Of a stretch of 64,000 bases of DNA, positions 4,479 to 62,274 are shown piece by piece (position 1 is the first letter of the stretch; the number at the start of each line of letters is the position of its first letter). The notes beneath the pieces are model-generated. The model saw only the letters and a list, made by a program, of their open reading frames with translations, was not told where the DNA came from and did no database searches. This DNA comes from Campylobacteraceae bacterium (GTDB lineage Bacteria; Campylobacterota; Campylobacteria; Campylobacterales; Campylobacteraceae): NCBI GenBank assembly GCA_031263195.1, contig JAISGD010000022.1, positions 1 through 64,000 of the forward strand, given 5' to 3'. Both the position numbers and the translations under genes were made by a program.

Positions 4479-4932
4479 GCTACTCCAATGATAAAATTTA
4501 AAAATGATAGCCGTGAAGCACTTAAAATCCGCTATATTTTTAAATCGTATTATAATCTCACATTTAAGCTAATAGCATGCAGTCTTTTATGAATAATTAC
4601 CAGAAACCTATCCAGTTACGAAGTAAACGCTTATATTTGCACAATAAACAGCATGAAAACATAAAGCTAGACAAGATTTTCTGTACAACAAATAAAAAAT
4701 ACTAAAAGGTTTTATTGATACATTTTTAGTTTCGTACTAAAATGTGGGATTTAACCAAATAATACTCTTTCACAATTTCACTTTCAATTCTGTAAATTCA
4801 ACACTGTTTCAATATTTTTTTGGAAAAGAGTATGGGTTTTTTAATCAATTAATTTAAACTCAAGAGTAATATTGGTATATTTCTATCTTCAAATTACACA
4901 ATGGCATAAAAATACGCATGTGTTTTACTAAT

Positions 4933-24159: not shown

Positions 24160-24841
24160 TTAAAAGTTCTTGATTATAAACTCCTTTGTCTTTACTTGAC
24201 GAGGGGCGTTAATGCCGTAGGTTACATCTATCTCCTGCATGTTGTAAGTCTTATATAAGTCCTTTACGACGTCGCATACATTATAGGAAAGCACAAATTT
24301 GCCTTTTATGCCCTTTAAATCGCTTGCAAGACGCTCATGATCCTTGATACCAAATCCGCCTTTTAACGAACCTTTATAGTAGTTTTCTGTGCCTACGTAA
24401 GGTGGGTCTGCATAAAAGAGGGTTGTGTCCGCATCATAATTTTTGATGAGGTTTGAGAAGTCCATGTTTTCTATGCAGACGCCTTTTAAGCGGTCATGAA
24501 ACGGCTTAAAACTGCCGTAGATATTCCTCACGGCGCGCCTTTTCTTTGGCATAGCAAAATTATCTCCCTTGCTCCCGAATGATAAAACGGTTCGATAGAA
24601 ATAAAAGGCTGCCCTCTCTATGTCGTTTCTCGGTGTTAGTTTTTCGCTCCGCAAATTCGGATATTATCCTGTCTGCAAGTTTACTCTTGCCGCCTACCCA
24701 ACCGAACGCGGGCTTGCGGGGATTACGCCGGTAATTCTCTGCTCTCTCCGGAAGAGGCGGATAAAAGTTTTCCTCTTCCGGTTTGACCGCATTTTTTGCG
24801 GCAACATTTAATGCCTTAAGTACATGTTCTGCACTTCCCAT
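24160..24841 (-). pseudogene. Dam-type (D12 class) adenine methylase, internally deleted and frameshifted
   Basis: The N-terminal part (from ATG 24841) has the D12 motif PAFGWVGGKSKLADRIISEF. The C-terminal part, in another frame, has LTPRNDIERAAFYFYRTVLSFG, the catalytic FYADPPYVGTENYY and a normal end. The region that should hold VE-F-GGA and the ND motif between them is missing, so about 60 or more residues were deleted with loss of frame near 24640-24660. The intact enzyme would have methylated adenine in phage or host DNA. Confidence 0.8.
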
Positions 24842-24970
24842 TTTGTTCCTTTTTTTGACTTTTTTGCGCGCTGGAAAAGCCTATTTTGTGGTATGTAAAA
24901 TAATCTAAACAAATGTTTAGAAAAGTTTAGATATAGTTTTCGCGTTTTGTTCTTACGTGGATAAAACAAC

Positions 24971-39263: not shown

Positions 39264-39606
39264 AAAACACCTCCACAACTTCTTTTATCGCTTCCAGCTT
39301 GCTTTCGCACGTATCGGCTGCCAATTTTATGTTTTTATACTTCCTATCTATCTCTTTGTTTGTTGCTTGCAGCGTCTTCTTGGCACTGTCTAAATCCAGC
39401 TCAAACTGTTTTATCTGTGCGCTCTGCAAACTCAAAGCCGCTTCGTATCCCGCACTCTCTTTTTGTTTTAATTCCAACTTTATTTCTAAACTCTTGTTTA
39501 GATTTTCAAGCGCATTAATTTTGCTCGTCATGCTCCAGCTCGTAAGTGCCCAGCCTACAAGAGATAAAACCAATGCAGCCGATAATATTTTGCTTATAAG
39601 GTTCAT
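39247..39606 (-). CDS. Inner-membrane spanin (Rz-like), 119 aa
   Basis: One N-terminal membrane helix (about 6-24) and a periplasmic coiled coil of about 70 residues (KINALENLNKSLEIKLELK and on): the Rz architecture. Lies right after the endolysin and overlaps the o-spanin gene. Spanins complete lysis of Gram-negative hosts by fusing the membranes. Confidence 0.8.
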   Translation of the reverse strand: MNLISKILSAALVLSLVGWALTSWSMTSKINALENLNKSLEIKLELKQKESAGYEAALSLQSAQIKQFELDLDSAKKTLQATNKEIDRKYKNIKLAADTCESKLEAIKEVVEVFYAESD

Positions 39607-43111: not shown

Positions 43112-43239
43112 GTTTTAACTCCATTCCAAAATTTGCCCAAATCTTATTACTTCCCTTTCTTAAAATCACTCAAAATATACATATATAGAGTGTTTTAAAA
43201 AAAAATTTGATTTATCATTCAGAAAACTTCAGAAGGCAG
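43112..43239. promoter_or_regulatory. Divergent late control region
   Basis: Separates the leftward head-tail operon from the rightward portal-terminase pair. It holds a near-perfect inverted repeat, TAAAATCACTC at 43161-43171 and GAGTGTTTTA at 43188-43197, around an AT-rich centre. No clear sigma-70 promoter is seen on either strand, so an activator-dependent late promoter (Mu C or Ogr type) is likely; I did not recognise the activator. Confidence 0.5.
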
Positions 43240-44328
43240 ATGATGGAAAGTGCAAAAGTTATCAAAGGCATATCAAGTGAGCAGATTGTAACAGTAGACA
43301 AATTAGCCTCGTTTAACGGGATAATAGAACCTTTCTTTGACTTTGATAAGGTGCTTAAACTCTACTATGCAAACCCGTATCACAGGCTTTGCATAAATAT
43401 AAAAAGCCGTGTTCTTAGTCTTTCGGAAGAGAGCGACCTTGAGAAATATCTGCCGAACTCTACAGTAAAACGCTTCTTAAGGGATTCCATAAGAGACCTT
43501 GAGATATTCGGAAATATGTTCACAGAGATAGAGGGGGCGGGTAAATACAGAGCCTTCTATTATATGCCGGCGCGAGAAGCAAGGCTTGATAACGACTTCA
43601 AAATCTATCAGGTTAATGGATACAAAAAAAAGGAGATTCCGGGTTCTTACTACAGTTACAGTTCTCCCATGTCGCGCCATTACGGCGAACCCGATTATCT
43701 TGCTTCAATTAATCAAATACTTACAGTTCAGGATATTAACCTTTATAACAACCTTTTTTTCAAAAACGGCGCAACGCCAAGACTTGCGGTCATATTTGAA
43801 AATTCAGAACCAACTCAAGAACAAATAGATGCATTCAGCGAGTTTTTCGGTTCGTCTTTCAGGGGCGTGGAGAATGCACACAAAACTCTTATTATCTCCT
43901 CCGGAACAAACTTAGAGGGCAAGGATGCAAAGATAAGAGTTGAGAAGCTCTCTGCAGATGATGATTTGAGTTTTGAGAAGTTGCGGGAGATAAGCAGGAA
44001 TGAGATAATAGCGGCGCATTCCGTGCCTCCAAGACTTGTTGGCATTGTAAACACCGGAGGTTGGGGCGGACAGAGCGAACTGATAGGTCAGCTGCATCTG
44101 TTTAACGAAACAGTTATTAAGCCGAAGCAGGAGGAGATAGAAGAGTATTTCGGAAGTTTAGGCGTAAAGCTTGTACTTAAACCCTTTGACATTACAAACT
44201 TCAAAGATGACAGCGAGGTACTGCCTAATCTTATTCAGGCAGGTATCCTAAGTGTAGCTGAAGCGAGAGAAATTCTCGGGTGGCAGAAAAACATCGCGGG
44301 CATTAATAACGGCAATAAAGATGTTTAG
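43240..44328 (+). CDS. Portal protein (P2 Q/PBSX family), 362 aa
   Basis: Dodecameric portal at one head vertex. Family features: FFDFDKVLKLYYANPYHRLC, FLRDSIRDLEIFGNMF, the HYGEPDYLASINQIL motif and NEIIAAHSVPPRLVG, with WGGQSE and a helical tail. I take ATG 43240 (AGAAGG upstream); the longer frame would start with TTG in the control region. Together with terminase it is transcribed away from the capsid genes, as in phage P2. Confidence 0.85.
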   Translation: MMESAKVIKGISSEQIVTVDKLASFNGIIEPFFDFDKVLKLYYANPYHRLCINIKSRVLSLSEESDLEKYLPNSTVKRFLRDSIRDLEIFGNMFTEIEGAGKYRAFYYMPAREARLDNDFKIYQVNGYKKKEIPGSYYSYSSPMSRHYGEPDYLASINQILTVQDINLYNNLFFKNGATPRLAVIFENSEPTQEQIDAFSEFFGSSFRGVENAHKTLIISSGTNLEGKDAKIRVEKLSADDDLSFEKLREISRNEIIAAHSVPPRLVGIVNTGGWGGQSELIGQLHLFNETVIKPKQEEIEEYFGSLGVKLVLKPFDITNFKDDSEVLPNLIQAGILSVAEAREILGWQKNIAGINNGNKDV

Positions 44329-44408
44329 ACAGCGTTTAGATTTCACGATAAGGCTCTCGGTGCTATCCAACTACCTTTTTATCAAAAAAATTGATTGTAG
44401 GGCAAAAA

Positions 44409-45974
44409 ATGTACTCTAAGAAATTAAAGCAAAGAGTATTAGCCTTAATCAATTCTGCTATACCCGTTACGGAGATAGCAAAAGAACTAAAAATCTCGCG
44501 CTTAACGGTGCAAAGATGGAAAAAGCAACAGACGATAGAGCAGCAGGATACTCGAGCGACTATCAAAAATCTTAAAAAGCAGCTTGCAATCCTAAGCAAA
44601 CGCAACCCTACAGAAGCAGTATCTCGCAAAATAGCGATGATAAGCAAAGCCTTAGCAACGCAAGAGAGGATAGAGACAAAAGAGGAAAAGGCAAAAACTC
44701 CTAAGCCTTATATCGCCTTAGAAGTAGTAGGAGGACTAAGAGAGAGGGCGCTAAAAGAAGCAGAATTATATAGCTACCAATCCGCTTTCCTGAAAGACGA
44801 GGCGCAATTTCGTATTATTTTAAAATCCCGACAAATCGGGTTTTCTTATGTTGCCGCGCTGGACGCTCTTTGTGCTGCGCACGATAACGGGCGCAATCAA
44901 TTATTTTTATCAGCTTCAGAGGAACAAGCGTTAATCCTCATGTCCTATCTAACGATGTGGGCAAACAAGTTCGGAGTAACGTTTAAGAAGAATACAGACA
45001 CGGAAAAAGTCCTACAAAACGGTGCAGTCATAAAAGCACTTGCGCATAACTTCAGAACCGTACAAGGTTTCACGGGGGATGTTTGGATGGACGAGTTCGC
45101 TTGGTATCCGAACCCTAAAAAGATTTGGCATGCGTTTGTTCCGTCCATTGGCGCAATACAAGGACGCCTTACAATTCTTAGCACGCCCTTTGAAGAGGCT
45201 GCACTGTTCCATAATTTGTGGTCGGACGATGCGAAATATTATATGTTCAGCCACCACCGCGTAGATATTTATACTGCAATGCGGGATGGTTTAAAATTTG
45301 ATTTGGAGATTATGCGTGCGCTGTTCGATGCGGACACATGGGCAAGTGCTTATGAGTGCCAATTCATTGATGATGAGTCTGCATTATTCTCAATCGCATT
45401 GATAAAATCTTGTGTAGATGTACAGGCGCGTTATTATACGCCACACCATCTTGCGCCGTTAATCGCAGGCTACGATGTGGGACGAATAAAAGACTCCAGC
45501 GCATTAGCAGTGCTGAGCGCGAAAGATGGCGGCAAGTATGATTTGTGTATTTTAGATGTGCTAAGAAAAGCGAAGTTCGATGAGCAGAAAATGCACTTAA
45601 AAGCATTTATGAGTACGAATGTATTTGCAAGGCTGCGTTTAGATAAGACAGGTATTGGTATGAATTTAACGGAAGATATAACGAAAGAATATAAGAGCAG
45701 AGCGCAGGGAGTGTATTTTACTGCCGTGCAAAAGGAAGCTATGTCGCTTAACCTCAAGAAGATGTTTGAAGACAAATTAATAACTATCCCCAATGATCCG
45801 TTGCTCATCGCAGATATACATGCTATAAAACGCAAAGCGGGAGCAAAAGGATTTCTTTATGATGCCGACCGTAACGAACACGGACATGCGGATAGATACT
45901 GGGCTATGGCACTTGCTGCCAGCCATGCGGAAATCCTGCAGGTAAAACGCGGCGGCAGAGCTTATCTTATTTAA
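44409..45974 (+). CDS. Terminase large subunit with N-terminal HTH (P2 gpP-like), 521 aa
   Basis: DNA-packaging motor. An N-terminal helix-turn-helix (about residues 5-35, VTEIAKELKISRLTVQRWKK) is followed by an ATPase with the P2-type motif ILKSRQIGFSYVAAL and Walker B DVWMDEFAW. A nuclease domain with GYDVGRIKDSSALAVL and the C-terminal HGHADRYWAMALA completes it. The HTH may replace a separate small subunit, which I do not find. Starts at ATG 44409 with AGGG upstream. Confidence 0.85.
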   Translation: MYSKKLKQRVLALINSAIPVTEIAKELKISRLTVQRWKKQQTIEQQDTRATIKNLKKQLAILSKRNPTEAVSRKIAMISKALATQERIETKEEKAKTPKPYIALEVVGGLRERALKEAELYSYQSAFLKDEAQFRIILKSRQIGFSYVAALDALCAAHDNGRNQLFLSASEEQALILMSYLTMWANKFGVTFKKNTDTEKVLQNGAVIKALAHNFRTVQGFTGDVWMDEFAWYPNPKKIWHAFVPSIGAIQGRLTILSTPFEEAALFHNLWSDDAKYYMFSHHRVDIYTAMRDGLKFDLEIMRALFDADTWASAYECQFIDDESALFSIALIKSCVDVQARYYTPHHLAPLIAGYDVGRIKDSSALAVLSAKDGGKYDLCILDVLRKAKFDEQKMHLKAFMSTNVFARLRLDKTGIGMNLTEDITKEYKSRAQGVYFTAVQKEAMSLNLKKMFEDKLITIPNDPLLIADIHAIKRKAGAKGFLYDADRNEHGHADRYWAMALAASHAEILQVKRGGRAYLI

Positions 45975-46459
45975 GCCAAAGCAGGGTAAAGCATAATTGG
46001 TAAATTCATAAGTGTACCTACGACATTATTAATAGCCGCTTCTTTTATTATATCAATTGCGCGTCTATTTTTACCGTTATTTAATACCTCTTTTTCTAAG
46101 GCCGCAAGCCCTTTATTTGTAATTGCTACTTCAAAAAATACACCACCGTATTTGGTTGTTGATTTTTCGTCAGGTTTTGTAAAAGTTATAAAACCTTCAT
46201 CCTTAAGCCACCATATTGCACCAGCACATAGCATATTGTAAACCCTATCTTGCGGAACGATATTATCTTCGTAATTAGGTTCGCCTAATTGCAAATTTTT
46301 AAAACTTTCAGGGTCATAATATGTCTCGAATATTTCTTTATCCATATCTTCTTTTTCAACAATGTTATGTGTTTTCATATTTGCTATAACAGGATTATCA
46401 TAAAGATATGCTAATACTTTTGCTATATATAGATTTAACTTCTCTCTCTTTTCAGTCAT
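45971..46459 (-). CDS. Hypothetical accessory protein, 162 aa
   Basis: Not recognised. Mostly helical, with ITNKGLAALEKEVLNN and WWLKDEGFITF suggesting a winged-helix-like core, and a hydrophobic C-terminal segment (about 140-162). ATG 46459 has AGAAGGA upstream. It converges with the terminase gene (stops overlap by four bases) and diverges from the small membrane gene pair, so it lies inside a cargo segment that interrupts the head module. Confidence 0.5.
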   Translation of the reverse strand: MTEKREKLNLYIAKVLAYLYDNPVIANMKTHNIVEKEDMDKEIFETYYDPESFKNLQLGEPNYEDNIVPQDRVYNMLCAGAIWWLKDEGFITFTKPDEKSTTKYGGVFFEVAITNKGLAALEKEVLNNGKNRRAIDIIKEAAINNVVGTLMNLPIMLYPALA

Positions 46460-46527
46460 ATTTTCATCCTTCTTTATTATTTCGTATATTATATCAATTT
46501 TTCTAAACAATATTAAACATTTTTTGA

Positions 46528-46555
46528 TATAATATCCTAAAATTTTTTAGGATAT
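46528..46555 (+). promoter_or_regulatory. Promoter with palindromic operator for the small membrane-gene pair
   Basis: A TATAAT box at 46528-46533 is followed directly by a perfect inverted repeat with 11-bp arms (46532-46542 and 46545-46555) over the expected transcription start. The same palindrome could form a stem at the mRNA 5' end just upstream of the first gene. Confidence 0.6.
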
Positions 46556-46560
46556 GCGTA

Positions 46561-46728
46561 TTGGAAATATTAAGTTTGATTGCCGATTTAGCTGGGATTT
46601 TTGGATTTATAATGTCGGTACTTGGCTTGTTTTTAATCAGACGGATAAATATCAAAATTAATACTAATAATATTGATAGTCTAAAACAAATGCACACTGG
46701 CATAGGAAACAACGAGGTAAAATTATGA
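46561..46728 (+). CDS. Small membrane protein of cargo pair, 55 aa
   Basis: Starts with TTG at 46561, seven bases after AGGAT. One hydrophobic helix (about residues 3-25), a basic RRINIK stop-transfer and a polar tail containing KQMHTGIGNNEV. Its stop overlaps the next ATG (ATGA), implying coupled translation. The tail motif recurs in the neighbour. Too short for usual ORF cut-offs; function unknown. Confidence 0.5.
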   Translation: MEILSLIADLAGIFGFIMSVLGLFLIRRINIKINTNNIDSLKQMHTGIGNNEVKL

Positions 46729-47012
46729 TTACGCAAGAGCATAGCGGATATGGGAATAATACTGTAGACAATAGTCAAATAAATTATGATTATGAAATAG
46801 GAAATAGCATTACAAGTAATTATGTAGATAGCAGAGTAGCAAATTTTAAGCAAGATAATAATTGTTGTAACAACACATATATTACAAATAATATTACTAA
46901 TATTCAGATAAACATCAAAAATGTTATTGTTATTACGGGTAGTCTTTTATGCGCATATATAGTAAAAAGTGTGTTTGATAATATCATATTGCCCCGCCTT
47001 TGCAATAGGTAA
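46725..47012 (+). CDS. Asn-rich single-helix membrane protein of cargo pair, 95 aa
   Basis: ATG 46725 preceded by GAGGT. The N-terminal 64 residues are polar and very rich in Asn, Thr and Ser, beginning TQEHSGYGNNTV, a motif matching the tail of the upstream protein. A C-terminal membrane helix (about 66-85) and a short basic end follow. No family recognised. Lying on the opposite strand to the flanking late genes with its own promoter, it is a candidate lysogeny-expressed exclusion or defence factor. Confidence 0.5.
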   Translation: MITQEHSGYGNNTVDNSQINYDYEIGNSITSNYVDSRVANFKQDNNCCNNTYITNNITNIQINIKNVIVITGSLLCAYIVKSVFDNIILPRLCNR

Positions 47013-47020
47013 TATTATTT

Positions 47021-47467
47021 TTATATCAGCTTCTTAAATATCCCCTCTACAGATATCGATAAATCTTTTACAACCTCATCTCCATATTCAGAGATTACTC
47101 TGTCTATTTCGGGGCTTTTAATCGCATTAGAAAAATAAGGTTGCGCTTTTGTCCCGGGATGTAAAACTTTTCGACGTACCATTCTATTATCGCCTCTACC
47201 CCAAGCCAGTGCCTTTTTATTTTTCGGTTCTATTGTGTGTGCAGCAGTACCTTCATGAACAAAGATAGGATATATAATATGTTCATGGTTGGCGGTAATA
47301 ACTGTCAGGCGGGCACTGTTCCCGTGCTTTACGGTTGCCTCTTCATCTGTTACGCTTGCCACTTCTATGCTTTGTCTTAATTCGCCTGTTACTTTCGGCG
47401 CAAGTTTTTGCGCCTCTTTTACAACTGTGCGGGCTAAATCGTCAAGAAGCTTTTTTGTCTTTGCCAT
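47021..47467 (-). CDS. HK97 gp10-like/virion morphogenesis protein, 148 aa
   Basis: Pattern of head-tail joining proteins: KLAPKVTGELRQSIEV, a central beta region, FVHEGTAAHTIEPKNKKAL, and HPGTKAQPYFSNAI near the C-terminus. Likely completes the tail or head-tail interface. Overlaps the gene upstream by 26 bases. Confidence 0.75.
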   Translation of the reverse strand: MAKTKKLLDDLARTVVKEAQKLAPKVTGELRQSIEVASVTDEEATVKHGNSARLTVITANHEHIIYPIFVHEGTAAHTIEPKNKKALAWGRGDNRMVRRKVLHPGTKAQPYFSNAIKSPEIDRVISEYGDEVVKDLSISVEGIFKKLI

Positions 47468-49143: not shown

Positions 49144-49617
49144 TTATCCCTCTTTCTTCCTGTGTGTTTTAAAACCTAAAAAATACTCGGAACCTGTTAT
49201 AAGCTTATTTGCCTGCTCTAATGTCAGACCGTTTATGTATATAGGTCTAAAATCCAACGTCCTGTTGCAAAAGTCGCTTAACTCTCGTGTCATAACAGTT
49301 AATCCTCTGCTATCAGCTTCCAAACTCCAAAGTTTTTTCAGGTAGGCTTCTTGCTTCTCTGTCAGGCGTTCCGTTCCGGTAATTTTTTTCTTTTTTGTTC
49401 GGGGGCGAATGCCGCTTACTCTCGCTTCTGCCTTACCGTTCATTACGTCTAATAAGTTATGCAACTCGTCAATGGACATTTCGGCGCAACTTCGCACGCA
49501 ATAAGAGTTAAACAGATAATCCCCCCACACCTCCAGCTCTTTTCGCTCTTGGCAAAAAGGGTGCATGTGTATCTTAGCAAGTAGCCCGCGCCTTAGAAAC
49601 TCTTGTTTTGGTGTCAT
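49144..49617 (-). CDS. GemA/gp16-like protein (DUF1018), 157 aa
   Basis: Mu gp16-type regulator. N-terminal LLAKIHMHPFCQERKELE, central MSIDELHNLLDVMN, and after a basic linker (RPRTKKKK) a second part with LTEKQEAYLKKLW. In Mu, GemA modulates host gyrase-related expression; for most relatives the role is unknown. Four bases shared with the methyltransferase gene stop. Confidence 0.75.
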   Translation of the reverse strand: MTPKQEFLRRGLLAKIHMHPFCQERKELEVWGDYLFNSYCVRSCAEMSIDELHNLLDVMNGKAEARVSGIRPRTKKKKITGTERLTEKQEAYLKKLWSLEADSRGLTVMTRELSDFCNRTLDFRPIYINGLTLEQANKLITGSEYFLGFKTHRKKEG

Positions 49618-50443
49618 GTTAATTCCTTTATTACAGCTTGTATGTTCTCAAGCCTTTTTAATGCTCCTTCGTAATACTCTTTTTCTATCTCGCAACCTAC
49701 AAAATCAAACCCTAATTCCTTGCAAGCGACAGCAGTTGTGCCGCTTCCTAAAAAAGGATCGAATACAATATCTCCCTCTTTTGTAGCAAGTTTTATTAGT
49801 TTTTTTATAAGCTCTAAAGGTTTTTGCGTGGGATGTATAAAATTGTAATGCTCTCTTTGCGCCGCAATAATCGTTGTTGTAAGAGTTCCTCTTTTATATT
49901 TATTATACGTCGCATAACCTCTATCAGCATTTTTTAGTCCTAAGGTTGCTGTTGTATTATGCTTTACAACTTTCTCTTTTACTTCTTTCTGCCAATCTTT
50001 GAAATCCGCATAGTTCTTTATTTTTTTAATAGAAGAGAGAAGTCGCTTGAAATCTTGGTTAACAACTTCGTCTTTTATCTCCTGTTCAAAAACTTTATTA
50101 ATTTTGCGATTGCGAGTAAAGACGTTTATTAATTCGTGTTTTCTGCCTATCGCGCCGCAAGGGTTGCTCATATTCCTTTTATCCCATACAATTTCTTCGG
50201 CAAAATTAAAATACTGATTTAATTCGCAAGCCATTTGTGCCAGCATTATGCCTCTGCCAAAATAAACGACTGTAGCTTTTTGCATACTCTATCTATCTCT
50301 TTACAAAAAAGCTCTATATCAAATTGCTTGTCTAACTTATGCTTTAAATACAAATAAGGAGGGTCTGTAATTACAACATCAAAAGTGTTATCGGGACATT
50401 CTTTCATATAATCAAAGCAATCGCAATTGTAAATGTTATTCAT
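49614..50443 (-). pseudogene. DNA methyltransferase (beta class, DPPY) with a one-base frameshift
   Basis: The first frame (from ATG 50443) has the catalytic motif FDVVITDPPYLYLKHK. It loses frame at a CAAAAAG run near 50278-50284. The second frame carries on without loss through YFGRGIMLAQMAC and EIVWDKRNMSNP to the SAM site FDPFLGSGTTAVACKELG. One extra A (or a -1 slip) restores a single 277-aa N4/N6 methyltransferase. Mutation, sequencing error and phase variation cannot be told apart here. The downstream piece could start at ATG 50285 but would lack DPPY. Confidence 0.8.
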
Positions 50444-57954: not shown

Positions 57955-58041
57955 CTATCCCACAGCCAGTTTCAATATGTACACCACTGCCGCAAACGCC
58001 ACCGATATAAACAAAATCATCCAAACATCTTCCTTGTTCAT
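57955..58041 (-). CDS. Single-helix peptide between MuA and MuB genes, 28 aa
   Basis: ATG 58041 overlaps the MuA stop (ATGA). Nearly the whole peptide is one membrane helix (WMILFISVAFAAVVYILKLA). Tight coupling suggests it is real though very short. Confidence 0.45.
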   Translation of the reverse strand: MNKEDVWMILFISVAFAAVVYILKLAVG

Positions 58042-60050
58042 CCTGCCTGCTCCTTATAGATTACCTCTCTTTTTGCCACTTCATAGAGTTCTGCGCGTTC
58101 AGATATTAGATCTGCAAATTCAGCTTCTCTGTTATTCTCAATAGCCCAAACCAAAGCATCAAAATCAGATGTAAACAGAGGTCTGTCACCGTTCATTACG
58201 ACTTCCTGCGTATCCGGCGTCTCTATCTCAACCTTATGCGCTTGTGTGCGTTTTCGTAGTTTCATCGCTGTTTTCGCAGAGGTGGATATAATGTCTTTCA
58301 CTGTAGGATCATTAAGCTTTCTTGCAAGCTCATCAGCTCTTTGCGTTAGTTTTAAGCTCTCGCTTTCAATCTTTCGCATCTCTCTGCTTATGTTACGCAT
58401 TGCCTCTCTGCTTATTCCCTCAAGGCTTGCGTCTGTCGCTACGCATATCGGCGCCATTTCGCTGTCATACACACATATTTCACCCATGTTTGCGCCAAGA
58501 GCTACGTATACTCTCTCTCCTATATGTCCAATAAGGGCTGTGTGCGTATATTGCGCCTCTTTGCCGTCGCGACGGATTACAATGCCATCCTTGCCTACGG
58601 TTCTCTCTTCCCACTCGCCTAAAAGTATGTCAAGCGTTTGCTCATCTTCTACGCTTCTCGCAGGAGTTATATCTGTAGCGTATTTCTGCACAGGCGTCGT
58701 ATCTATGCTGCTATGCTTACGCTGCTCATATACATTTTCTACCCAGCCGTCAAGATAAGCTCTTAGCTCTTTAGGAGTCAGAGGTACAAAAACGCCAAGA
58801 GTATTATTTTTGTCCAGCATCGCTCGGACAAAACTCTTCTCTGTATATTTCTGTGATCTCCATCGCTTTCGCGCCTCTTGCTTTTTCTCAAAAGAGAGGC
58901 TGTTTTGTATTGCAGAGCGTTCTGCAACATTGTGTCCGCAAAATCCCTCAAGCCCCCTGAAAAGCTCCCTCATCATCGTTCCGAAAAATCTCTCAATGTG
59001 CGGTTTGCACCATCCCGAGTAAGGCGGAACCTCTTCCTTATTTATATGTAAGAGCTGGCAGACACTCTCAAAATGGTTACTTTTGTAGTCTCTGCCGTTA
59101 TCAGTCACCACATTCTCAGGGACGCCGAGCTTCAAGATCCCAGCTCTCAAATTCCTTGCCAGTGCGTAAGAACTGCTTGTAGGCTCCAGTGTCAAAACGA
59201 CTCTGCGGCTGTATATGTCTATCGCGCCTATTATCGTCCATCTTTTGCCGTCGCTTGTTATAACATCCGCCGGCGTACCATCAAGCTCCCAGTAATGGTT
59301 TTTATATCTTGCTTTTTCGCTTGTATTGCCAAACGCGGCGCGGTATTTACCTCTTGCGCGGTCGGGGTCTTTTGCGTAAGCAACCAAAACTTTATTTTCC
59401 TCTCGGTATCGTTTCAAGTATCTGCATACAGTGTCGCAGGATGGCAATGCATCCTTAAAAGCATGCTTCATTAATGTATAAATGCCTACATCGTTAGGAT
59501 GTATATCCCGCCTCAAGATGTACCTCTGCGCCATTTCTTGCATTTCGGTTGTCATCTTTAGCCTGCCTTTTGGTCTGCCTCGCTTGTCGCAAAAAAGCTC
59601 AAGCACATTCTGCTCTTTTATGCCTTTTTTATACAGTCCTACAAGCCGCAAAAAATGGGACTTTGTAGGTAAGATTTTACCATCGCTCCACTGTTCGTAA
59701 CTCACCCACTTTTCGCGTCTTACATAGCTCTTTATAAGTTCAATCCTTTGTAGCACTTCAGCCTGTTTGGACTTTGTAAGTTTTAAGAAGTTGTTTGTCC
59801 TTACAATAGGTTTAGCAGATAACTTTTTAGGTTCCGTGTGTTGTTTTATCACATGCGTTTGTGCAACATGTGCAGCCTCATCGTTCACCCAAATTTCAAG
59901 TGTTCTGCCACCGCGACCACCTTTTGTATTTATGTATCTGTAAGTGTAAGGCGAGTCTTTAGCAGCAGATAAAGCCCGTTCTATTACTATTCGTATAGTC
60001 CGTTCGCTTTTGCCAAGCCGCTCTGCAGCTTCTTTTGTTTTTAGCCACAT
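58038..60050 (-). CDS. MuA-type DDE transposase, 670 aa
   Basis: Catalyses replicative/integrative transposition of the phage. N-terminal Mu-type winged helix (about 1-60), a second DNA-binding region (about 65-230), then the RNase-H-like core with the catalytic triad: Asp in YWELDGTP (about 257), Asp in VVTDNGRDY (about 317) and Glu in KPHIERFFG (about 353). The Mu C-terminal beta-barrel and MuB-contact tail follow. Length matches Mu A (663 aa). Its binding sites are expected at the prophage ends. Confidence 0.95.
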   Translation of the reverse strand: MWLKTKEAAERLGKSERTIRIVIERALSAAKDSPYTYRYINTKGGRGGRTLEIWVNDEAAHVAQTHVIKQHTEPKKLSAKPIVRTNNFLKLTKSKQAEVLQRIELIKSYVRREKWVSYEQWSDGKILPTKSHFLRLVGLYKKGIKEQNVLELFCDKRGRPKGRLKMTTEMQEMAQRYILRRDIHPNDVGIYTLMKHAFKDALPSCDTVCRYLKRYREENKVLVAYAKDPDRARGKYRAAFGNTSEKARYKNHYWELDGTPADVITSDGKRWTIIGAIDIYSRRVVLTLEPTSSSYALARNLRAGILKLGVPENVVTDNGRDYKSNHFESVCQLLHINKEEVPPYSGWCKPHIERFFGTMMRELFRGLEGFCGHNVAERSAIQNSLSFEKKQEARKRWRSQKYTEKSFVRAMLDKNNTLGVFVPLTPKELRAYLDGWVENVYEQRKHSSIDTTPVQKYATDITPARSVEDEQTLDILLGEWEERTVGKDGIVIRRDGKEAQYTHTALIGHIGERVYVALGANMGEICVYDSEMAPICVATDASLEGISREAMRNISREMRKIESESLKLTQRADELARKLNDPTVKDIISTSAKTAMKLRKRTQAHKVEIETPDTQEVVMNGDRPLFTSDFDALVWAIENNREAEFADLISERAELYEVAKREVIYKEQAG

Positions 60051-61207: not shown

Positions 61208-61585
61208 TTTTCAGTCCTTAAAAAAATTGGTTTGTTTGAAGAGGAGGATCAGGTTTGCCGCTACGATGCACCATCTACCACAGTAGAAATTTTTCAAAAG
61301 GAGAAAATATGAAATCCTCCTCAAAAAAGCCAATTTATAGTTATCACAATGCGCCGGCACGCACTCTGATAATTGCTTATATTTTGCCAATCCGCATAAG
61401 CAAAACGGACTAAAGCCAAACAGGTTCCTGTGGTCAACCTGCAAAGAGGAGCTTAGTTTTACTTAAGTTCCCTCACCCGCGCGAATCAATCCCATCGCTG
61501 ACCCTAACTTAGGGCTATTAAAAAAATTTAAACTTTTCTAAAACAAAAAAGGTTTAGAATTGTTTAAAAGATTTAAACAATGACA
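61208..61585. other. Early leader/control region
   Basis: About 380 bases without a firm gene. A perfect 9-bp inverted repeat (GAGGAGGAT at 61241-61249, ATCCTCCTC at 61314-61322) and an inverted repeat TTGTTTAAA-AGA-TTTAAACAA (61560-61580) occur. A plus-strand 34-codon ORF (61309-61413) has a good AAGGAG site but no recognisable product. Probably the 5' leader of the early transcript and operators. Confidence 0.45.
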
Positions 61586-61654
61586 ATCATAACTCATTTT
61601 GAAACTTTTGTCAAGTCAAAATGAGTTTATTTTTAGAAAAAAGGTTCAAAATGA
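61586..61654 (-). promoter_or_regulatory. Early lytic promoter covered by repressor operators
   Basis: Minus strand TTGACA (61614-61609), 17-base spacer and TATGAT (61591-61586): a near-consensus sigma-70 promoter aimed at the transposition genes. Half sites TCAAAATGA lie in the spacer (inverted, 61594-61602), just upstream (61616-61624) and at the repressor start (61646-61654). The first two form a perfect 11-bp inverted repeat ACTCATTTTGA/TCAAAATGAGT. Likely c-repressor operators. Confidence 0.75.
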
Positions 61655-62274
61655 ATTTATTAAGTCCAGACGATATAACTGTTGACTGGTTAACAAAAAA
61701 ATATGAAGCTAATAATGATAAGGAATTAGGCGACAAAATGACTTGTCCTGTTAATACAATTAAAACATGGAGAGCAAGAGGTGTGCCGGATAGGGTAAAA
61801 ATAGATATATTTAAAAAGTTTCAAAATGAAATACACAAGAAAGAATATACAGATGCCTCAAGCACAATAAATATTACCATATTATCGCATAATGTATCTG
61901 CAGGAACAGACACCGATGTGACAGATATTGAAGTGCTTGATACAAATGATGTCATAACTGTATCGTTAAATCTTTTTAAAACACCACAAAATAGTAAATT
62001 TTTAAGAGCTGCAAAGGTGGATGGATATAGTATGATACCAATACTTATGCCTGACAGTATCGTTATTTTTGACACACATAAAAATGTTTTTGCAGGAGAT
62101 GGGCTATATGTCCTTATTTGGCGTAATGTTATGATGGTCAAGATTTTACAACTCACAAATAAAGGACAGTTGTTAATATTGTCAAAAAATCAAGATTATC
62201 AAAGTTGGGAAATAGATCCTGACGACCAAAGCGTATTCAAAATTTTAGGTAAGGTTGTAAAAACAATAATATAA
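61651..62274 (+). CDS. S24-type phage repressor, 207 aa
   Basis: Keeps the prophage silent. An N-terminal CI-like HTH (about residues 20-50, with MTCPVNTIKTWRARGVPD) is joined to a C-terminal LexA/CI-like S24 domain. Catalytic Ser in GYSMIPI and Lys in MMVKIL suggest RecA-stimulated self-cleavage, so induction by DNA damage is possible. I prefer ATG 61651 (AAAAGG upstream) to 61621, which lies in the operator. Divergent from the early operon. Confidence 0.85.
   Translation: MNLLSPDDITVDWLTKKYEANNDKELGDKMTCPVNTIKTWRARGVPDRVKIDIFKKFQNEIHKKEYTDASSTINITILSHNVSAGTDTDVTDIEVLDTNDVITVSLNLFKTPQNSKFLRAAKVDGYSMIPILMPDSIVIFDTHKNVFAGDGLYVLIWRNVMMVKILQLTNKGQLLILSKNQDYQSWEIDPDDQSVFKILGKVVKTII

Follow-up and report, generated by a model that had tools for sequence, protein, structure and literature searches.

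P2-like phages and P4 satellites carry prophage cargo hotspots, including defence-type systems (PMC9122126), in which a small, highly variable gene content lies between two conserved phage genes. The locus described here, found in a window of 64,000 nucleotides (the whole stretch of DNA analysed), has the same arrangement; it differs in that the slot lies between terminase and gp10-like genes of Mu-like Campylobacterales prophages, and in that slot promoters with repressor-like operators occur in three prophages of the same genus. In the transposable phage Fc02, gene 10 is a small gene of a repressed early operon that gives exclusion when expressed (PMC9936078), and it provides a precedent for exclusion by such a gene in a transposable phage. 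Like the two genes considered here (P1 and P2), the exclusion genes gene 10 and olg1 of Fc02 are small accessory genes carried by a transposable phage, but they occupy another genome position. In bacterial BASS pairs, composed of a Bell effector and an NLR (PMC7889193, PMC12261475), the C-terminus of a membrane protein shares a motif with the N-terminus of its neighbour and the genes overlap, which is also the geometry of P1–P2. On the other hand, the present locus has neither an NLR nor a Bell domain, its motif spans 11–13 residues and its proteins are tiny and phage-borne; the pair is not classed as BASS because the defining NLR and effector domains are absent. Finally, the stoperators of L5-type mycobacteriophages (PMC9283540) are, like the operator-like sites described below, repressor sites outside the immunity region; here, however, the sites are few, lie over promoter -35 regions and not inside transcription units, and the repressor is of a different type.

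The locus belongs to a Mu-like prophage (transposase at 58038–60050). Its slot is bounded on the left by the gene for the terminase large subunit (44391–45974, plus strand) and on the right by an HK97 gp10-like/Neck1 gene (47021–47467, minus strand), both convergent with the cassette, and the G+C content of the cassette patch is 28.6% vs. about 40% around it. Comparison of 20 syntenic prophages reveals that the slot is either empty or filled with other cargo: an SDH-type protease and an 83-residue protein in G001, a SMEK + DUF2326 candidate defence system, PDC-M68-like in PADLOC, in G101 (L090, G101:C7), a nuclease and a PH-domain protein in G056, and phrog_2266 genes, lipoproteins and others elsewhere. 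This slot is a cargo hotspot, and the P1–P2 locus is a real, unusual prophage moron or cargo cassette; the cargo character proposed in a preliminary description of this DNA is borne out by the cassette's own promoter, its position between conserved phage genes and contents that vary among related prophages. The pair had also been placed on the strand opposite the late genes, which holds with respect to most phage genes and fails for the portal and terminase genes (43207–45974), located on the same strand as the pair.

Two tightly packed plus-strand open reading frames make up the pair, as first described: P1 (46561–46728, 55 residues, TTG start) and P2 (46725–47012, 95 residues), whose ATG start overlaps the P1 stop codon in the sequence ATGA (46725–46728). 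The longest plus-strand frame of the locus exceeds chance expectation (p = 0.004), and the two-frame arrangement is reached in 0 of 3000 shuffles. P1 most likely starts at the TTG at 46561, the ATG at 46554 sitting in another frame, since an AGGA, its likely Shine-Dalgarno sequence (46549–46552, plus strand), lies 8 nt upstream and the relative found in prophage G007 also begins with TTG-GA; the same Shine-Dalgarno spacing is seen in that relative. Hydrophobicity predicts one membrane helix per product, N-terminal in P1 and C-terminal in P2, in agreement with the original reading. P1 comprises, in order, a membrane helix (residues ~3–26), RR, a β-like tract INIKINTNNI and the C-terminal motif QMHTGIGNNEV, and P2 the N-terminal motif QEHSGYGNNTV, an Asn-rich middle, the tract NNITNIQINIKN and the membrane helix (residues ~67–83); in the AlphaFold2 model of P2 only this C-terminal helix reaches a confidence of 70–90. 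Neither protein matches a known Pfam domain, be it NLR (NB-ARC/NACHT), Bell or other effector domain, or gives a convincing match to a defence family, and described families matching the pair were not found, consistent with the earlier view that no known system has this form.

The motif Q-x-H-[ST]-G-x-G-N-N-x-V is indeed present in both products, encoded at 46687–46719 for the P1 C-terminus and at 46734–46766 for the P2 N-terminus (both on the plus strand). The two copies share 18 of 33 nucleotides (55% identity as DNA), and five of the seven codons for identical amino acids differ at synonymous positions; this synonymous divergence fits the peptide as the selected level and not a recent duplication, so that conservation seems to act on the peptide. 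Alignment of the P1 tail with the P2 head beats shuffled sequences with p = 0.0005 (p = 0.029 for the whole proteins), and in 397 Campylobacterota genomes a relaxed DNA pattern of the motif has no matches beyond the P1 and P2 sites. The strict motif was not found in viral contigs, where the DNA pattern of the motif pair likewise gave no true gene pair among the 84 matches read (at least 120 stretches).

Homologous pairs elsewhere, whose absence had been named beforehand as evidence against the proposal, were not recovered by searches of viral contigs, phages, plasmids and Campylobacterota genomes; these yielded no more than a relative with a single gene in the corresponding slot. This relative lies in G007, a prophage of the same genus whose slot holds a winged-helix gene 53% identical to that of the window, the same promoter region and a single 66-residue protein, which lacks the GNN motif and has QIINNINITIDGN between its two helices. 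The resemblance of this protein to P1 and P2 is based on position, start, helices and tract, the sequence comparisons being not significant (p = 0.08 vs. P1 and p = 0.55 vs. P2). Close relatives of P1 or P2 were absent from viral contigs, phages and plasmids, a search in which the BLAST low-complexity filter may hide relatives of the Asn-rich P2. A candidate relative, L014, proved to be a chance match, and weak matches to P2 within the genus corresponded to an unrelated protein and to Asn-rich or repeat proteins.

A divergent gene, absent from the preliminary description, shares the promoter region with P1–P2. It encodes a winged-helix-like protein of 162 residues (45971–46459, minus strand), which matches the phrog_2266 profile over most of its length (residues 3–153, E = 2.8e-7); its structural model resembles the winged helices of PadR, MarR and SSV1 F93 with moderate confidence, no E-value falling below 0.08. 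Close relatives of this protein were not found in viral contigs, phages or plasmids. The idea that phrog_2266 proteins are constant partners of small membrane genes was rejected, most family members having no such neighbour; P2-like phages have as divergent partner a small protein in which no membrane helix is obvious. At three loci of P2-like phages (L103, L104 and L106) the phrog_2266 genes lie close to the portal gene and next to genes for Fic or reverse transcriptase, and the start of a small divergent gene overlaps that of the phrog_2266 gene.

Between the two divergent genes, the TATAAT box reported for P1–P2 is present at 46528–46533 (plus strand), preceded by TG and with a promoter match of 10/12, and a second TG-extended TATAAT serves the winged-helix gene (46488–46493, minus strand). 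The perfect 11-bp inverted repeat was also confirmed (46532–46542/46545–46555); its arms are 2 nt apart and it covers the expected start site. Its absence from G007 rules it out as a conserved operator. What is kept in G007, unlike the palindrome, are the -10 elements and a repressor-type operator-like sequence. This sequence, CTAAACAATATTAAAC (46503–46518, plus strand), lies between the divergent promoters, centred near -30 and over the -35 region of both.

The sequence resembles the sites upstream of the S24-type repressor gene of the prophage (61621–62274, plus strand; Peptidase_S24, E = 4.6e-15), the proposed controller of the cassette. The array beside this gene (61528–61567) contains the exact sites 61528–61543 (plus strand) and 61552–61567 (minus strand), TTAAACTTTTCTAAAA and TTAAACAATTCTAAAC, with the consensus YTAAACWWTTCTAAAM. 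Only three exact copies of the consensus exist in the 1.79-Mb genome, all of them in this prophage: the two beside the repressor and a third (24915–24930, minus strand) that precedes a cargo gene for a D12-type methylase, which we propose from the site as a second member of the regulon. In six genomes of the same genus there are two exact copies, one in the repressor region of G001 and one at the same place as CTAAACAATATTAAAC in the cassette promoter of G007. The window copy differs from the consensus by two mismatches and retains both half-sites at the 10-bp spacing; taken on its own this resemblance is weak, being one of 79 such two-mismatch matches in the genome, and the argument for an operator is based on the window, G007 and G001 slots taken together. 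A matrix trained on the repressor-region sites only gives p = 0.0048 for the slot promoter of the window, p = 0.0004 for that of G001, where the site precedes cargo unrelated to P1–P2, and for G007 a score reached in 0 of 5000 trials. A repressor of the G007 prophage was looked for and not found, and a crude 16-mer test for a site shared between slot and early region gave nothing clear in ten Campylobacter prophages. In G001 (L072, G001:C76), two operator-like sites lie at about 4794–4826, upstream of the gene for the 83-residue protein and the SDH-type protease cargo. A perfect CTAAACTCTTGTTTAG inverted half-site pair is also present within the late genes of the window (39486–39501).

Both methylase genes of the prophage look frame-broken or possibly phase-variable, judging from their reading frames. 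The D12-type adenine methylase is encoded in two frames that overlap (24560–24841 and 24160–24654, minus strand), and just upstream of it the exact repressor-type operator is combined with the palindrome CTAAAC-AAAT-GTTTAG (24905–24930). The second, an N6_N4_Mtase gene (49614–50443), is likewise divided between two overlapping frames.

We read CTAAACAATATTAAAC as a single predicted operator that would occlude both divergent promoters. From an operator-like sequence over both -35 regions we predict that the repressor silences the pair in the lysogen, and that expression follows induction or entry into a new cell. This prediction bears on the proposal that the pair is expressed during lysogeny, which is not supported by the promoter layout and is probably wrong. 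The related explanation, a superinfection-exclusion or anti-phage module that is active in the prophage and stops other phages at the membrane, appears unlikely to us. It would account for a good -10 element of the cassette's own on the minority strand, and it agrees with the presence of the PADLOC candidate in the same slot of G101 and with the frequency of anti-phage systems in prophage hotspots between conserved genes (PMC9122126); the operator-like sequence, exact in G007 and repeated before unrelated cargo in G001, argues against it, as does the failure of P1 and P2 to match a defence family convincingly. An anti-phage or exclusion function in itself is possible, by analogy, since the slot in another prophage holds a candidate defence system.

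Similarly improbable is that the locus represents a decaying remnant, in which a gene for a two-helix protein like that of G007 has been split, the halves having no joint function and the motif likeness reflecting coincidence or an old local duplication. The AT-rich, fast-evolving character of the locus, the single gene at the same place in G007 and the lack of a homologous pair in the searches speak for this explanation. Yet both frames are open beyond chance, with good start signals and a tight ATGA overlap, and the motif copies have diverged synonymously with the key amino-acid positions unchanged. An amyloid-signalling-like pair, with the motif as a prion-like unit passed between P1 as membrane effector and P2 as sensor, is very unlikely: the BASS-like placement of the motif, C-terminal in a membrane protein and N-terminal in the product of the overlapping gene (PMC7889193), and the resemblance of Q...G-x-G-N-N-x-V to the strand-arc-strand curlin unit N-x-V-x-x-x-Q (PMC10192328), have to be set against the absence of NLR, Bell or other effector domains, a motif shorter than the 21–40 residues of known BASS (PMC12261475) and a loose curlin likeness in which neither the Pfam profile PF07012 (up to E = 10) nor the N-x-Psi-x-Psi-x-Q repeat is matched.

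The reading we prefer, to which we give about an even chance, is that of a repressor-silenced cargo cassette of a Mu-like prophage, composed of the divergent winged-helix gene and the genes of two motif-paired membrane proteins with an early, membrane-acting accessory role. P1 and P2 would be made from one short mRNA as mirror images, helix–β tract–motif and motif–β tract–helix, with the polar end of each probably in the cytoplasm, to judge from the charges (RR following the P1 helix, lysines in the loop of the G007 protein). The two proteins would probably associate by way of the motif they have in common, acting as a strand-turn-strand-like unit, and so restore from two chains the helix-loop-helix shape seen in the single G007 protein; such pairing would be the simplest reason for the motif to be kept in both. 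In the lysogen, the prophage repressor would shut off both divergent promoters from one operator, and its loss, when the prophage is induced or the phage enters a non-immune cell, would switch on the pair together with the early genes. The most likely role would then be an early accessory function at the membrane, such as exclusion of competitors, host takeover or membrane stress; a toxin would be another candidate. The most specific form of the model, a helix-loop-helix protein split in two, with a matched strand-turn-strand motif of amyloid type joining the halves again, which the repressor silences and which assembles only on the exit of the phage from lysogeny, is distinctly less probable and must be seen as a long shot.

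If the preferred reading is true, a Mu-like prophage wires the unrelated cargo of one slot to its own repressor, and the slot cargo acts at the end of lysogeny, not during it. Hotspot genes of this sort would then need to be assayed on induction and not in lysogens alone. Moreover, P1 and P2, tiny membrane proteins with matching motifs, would represent a simple form of short-motif pairing outside NLR systems.
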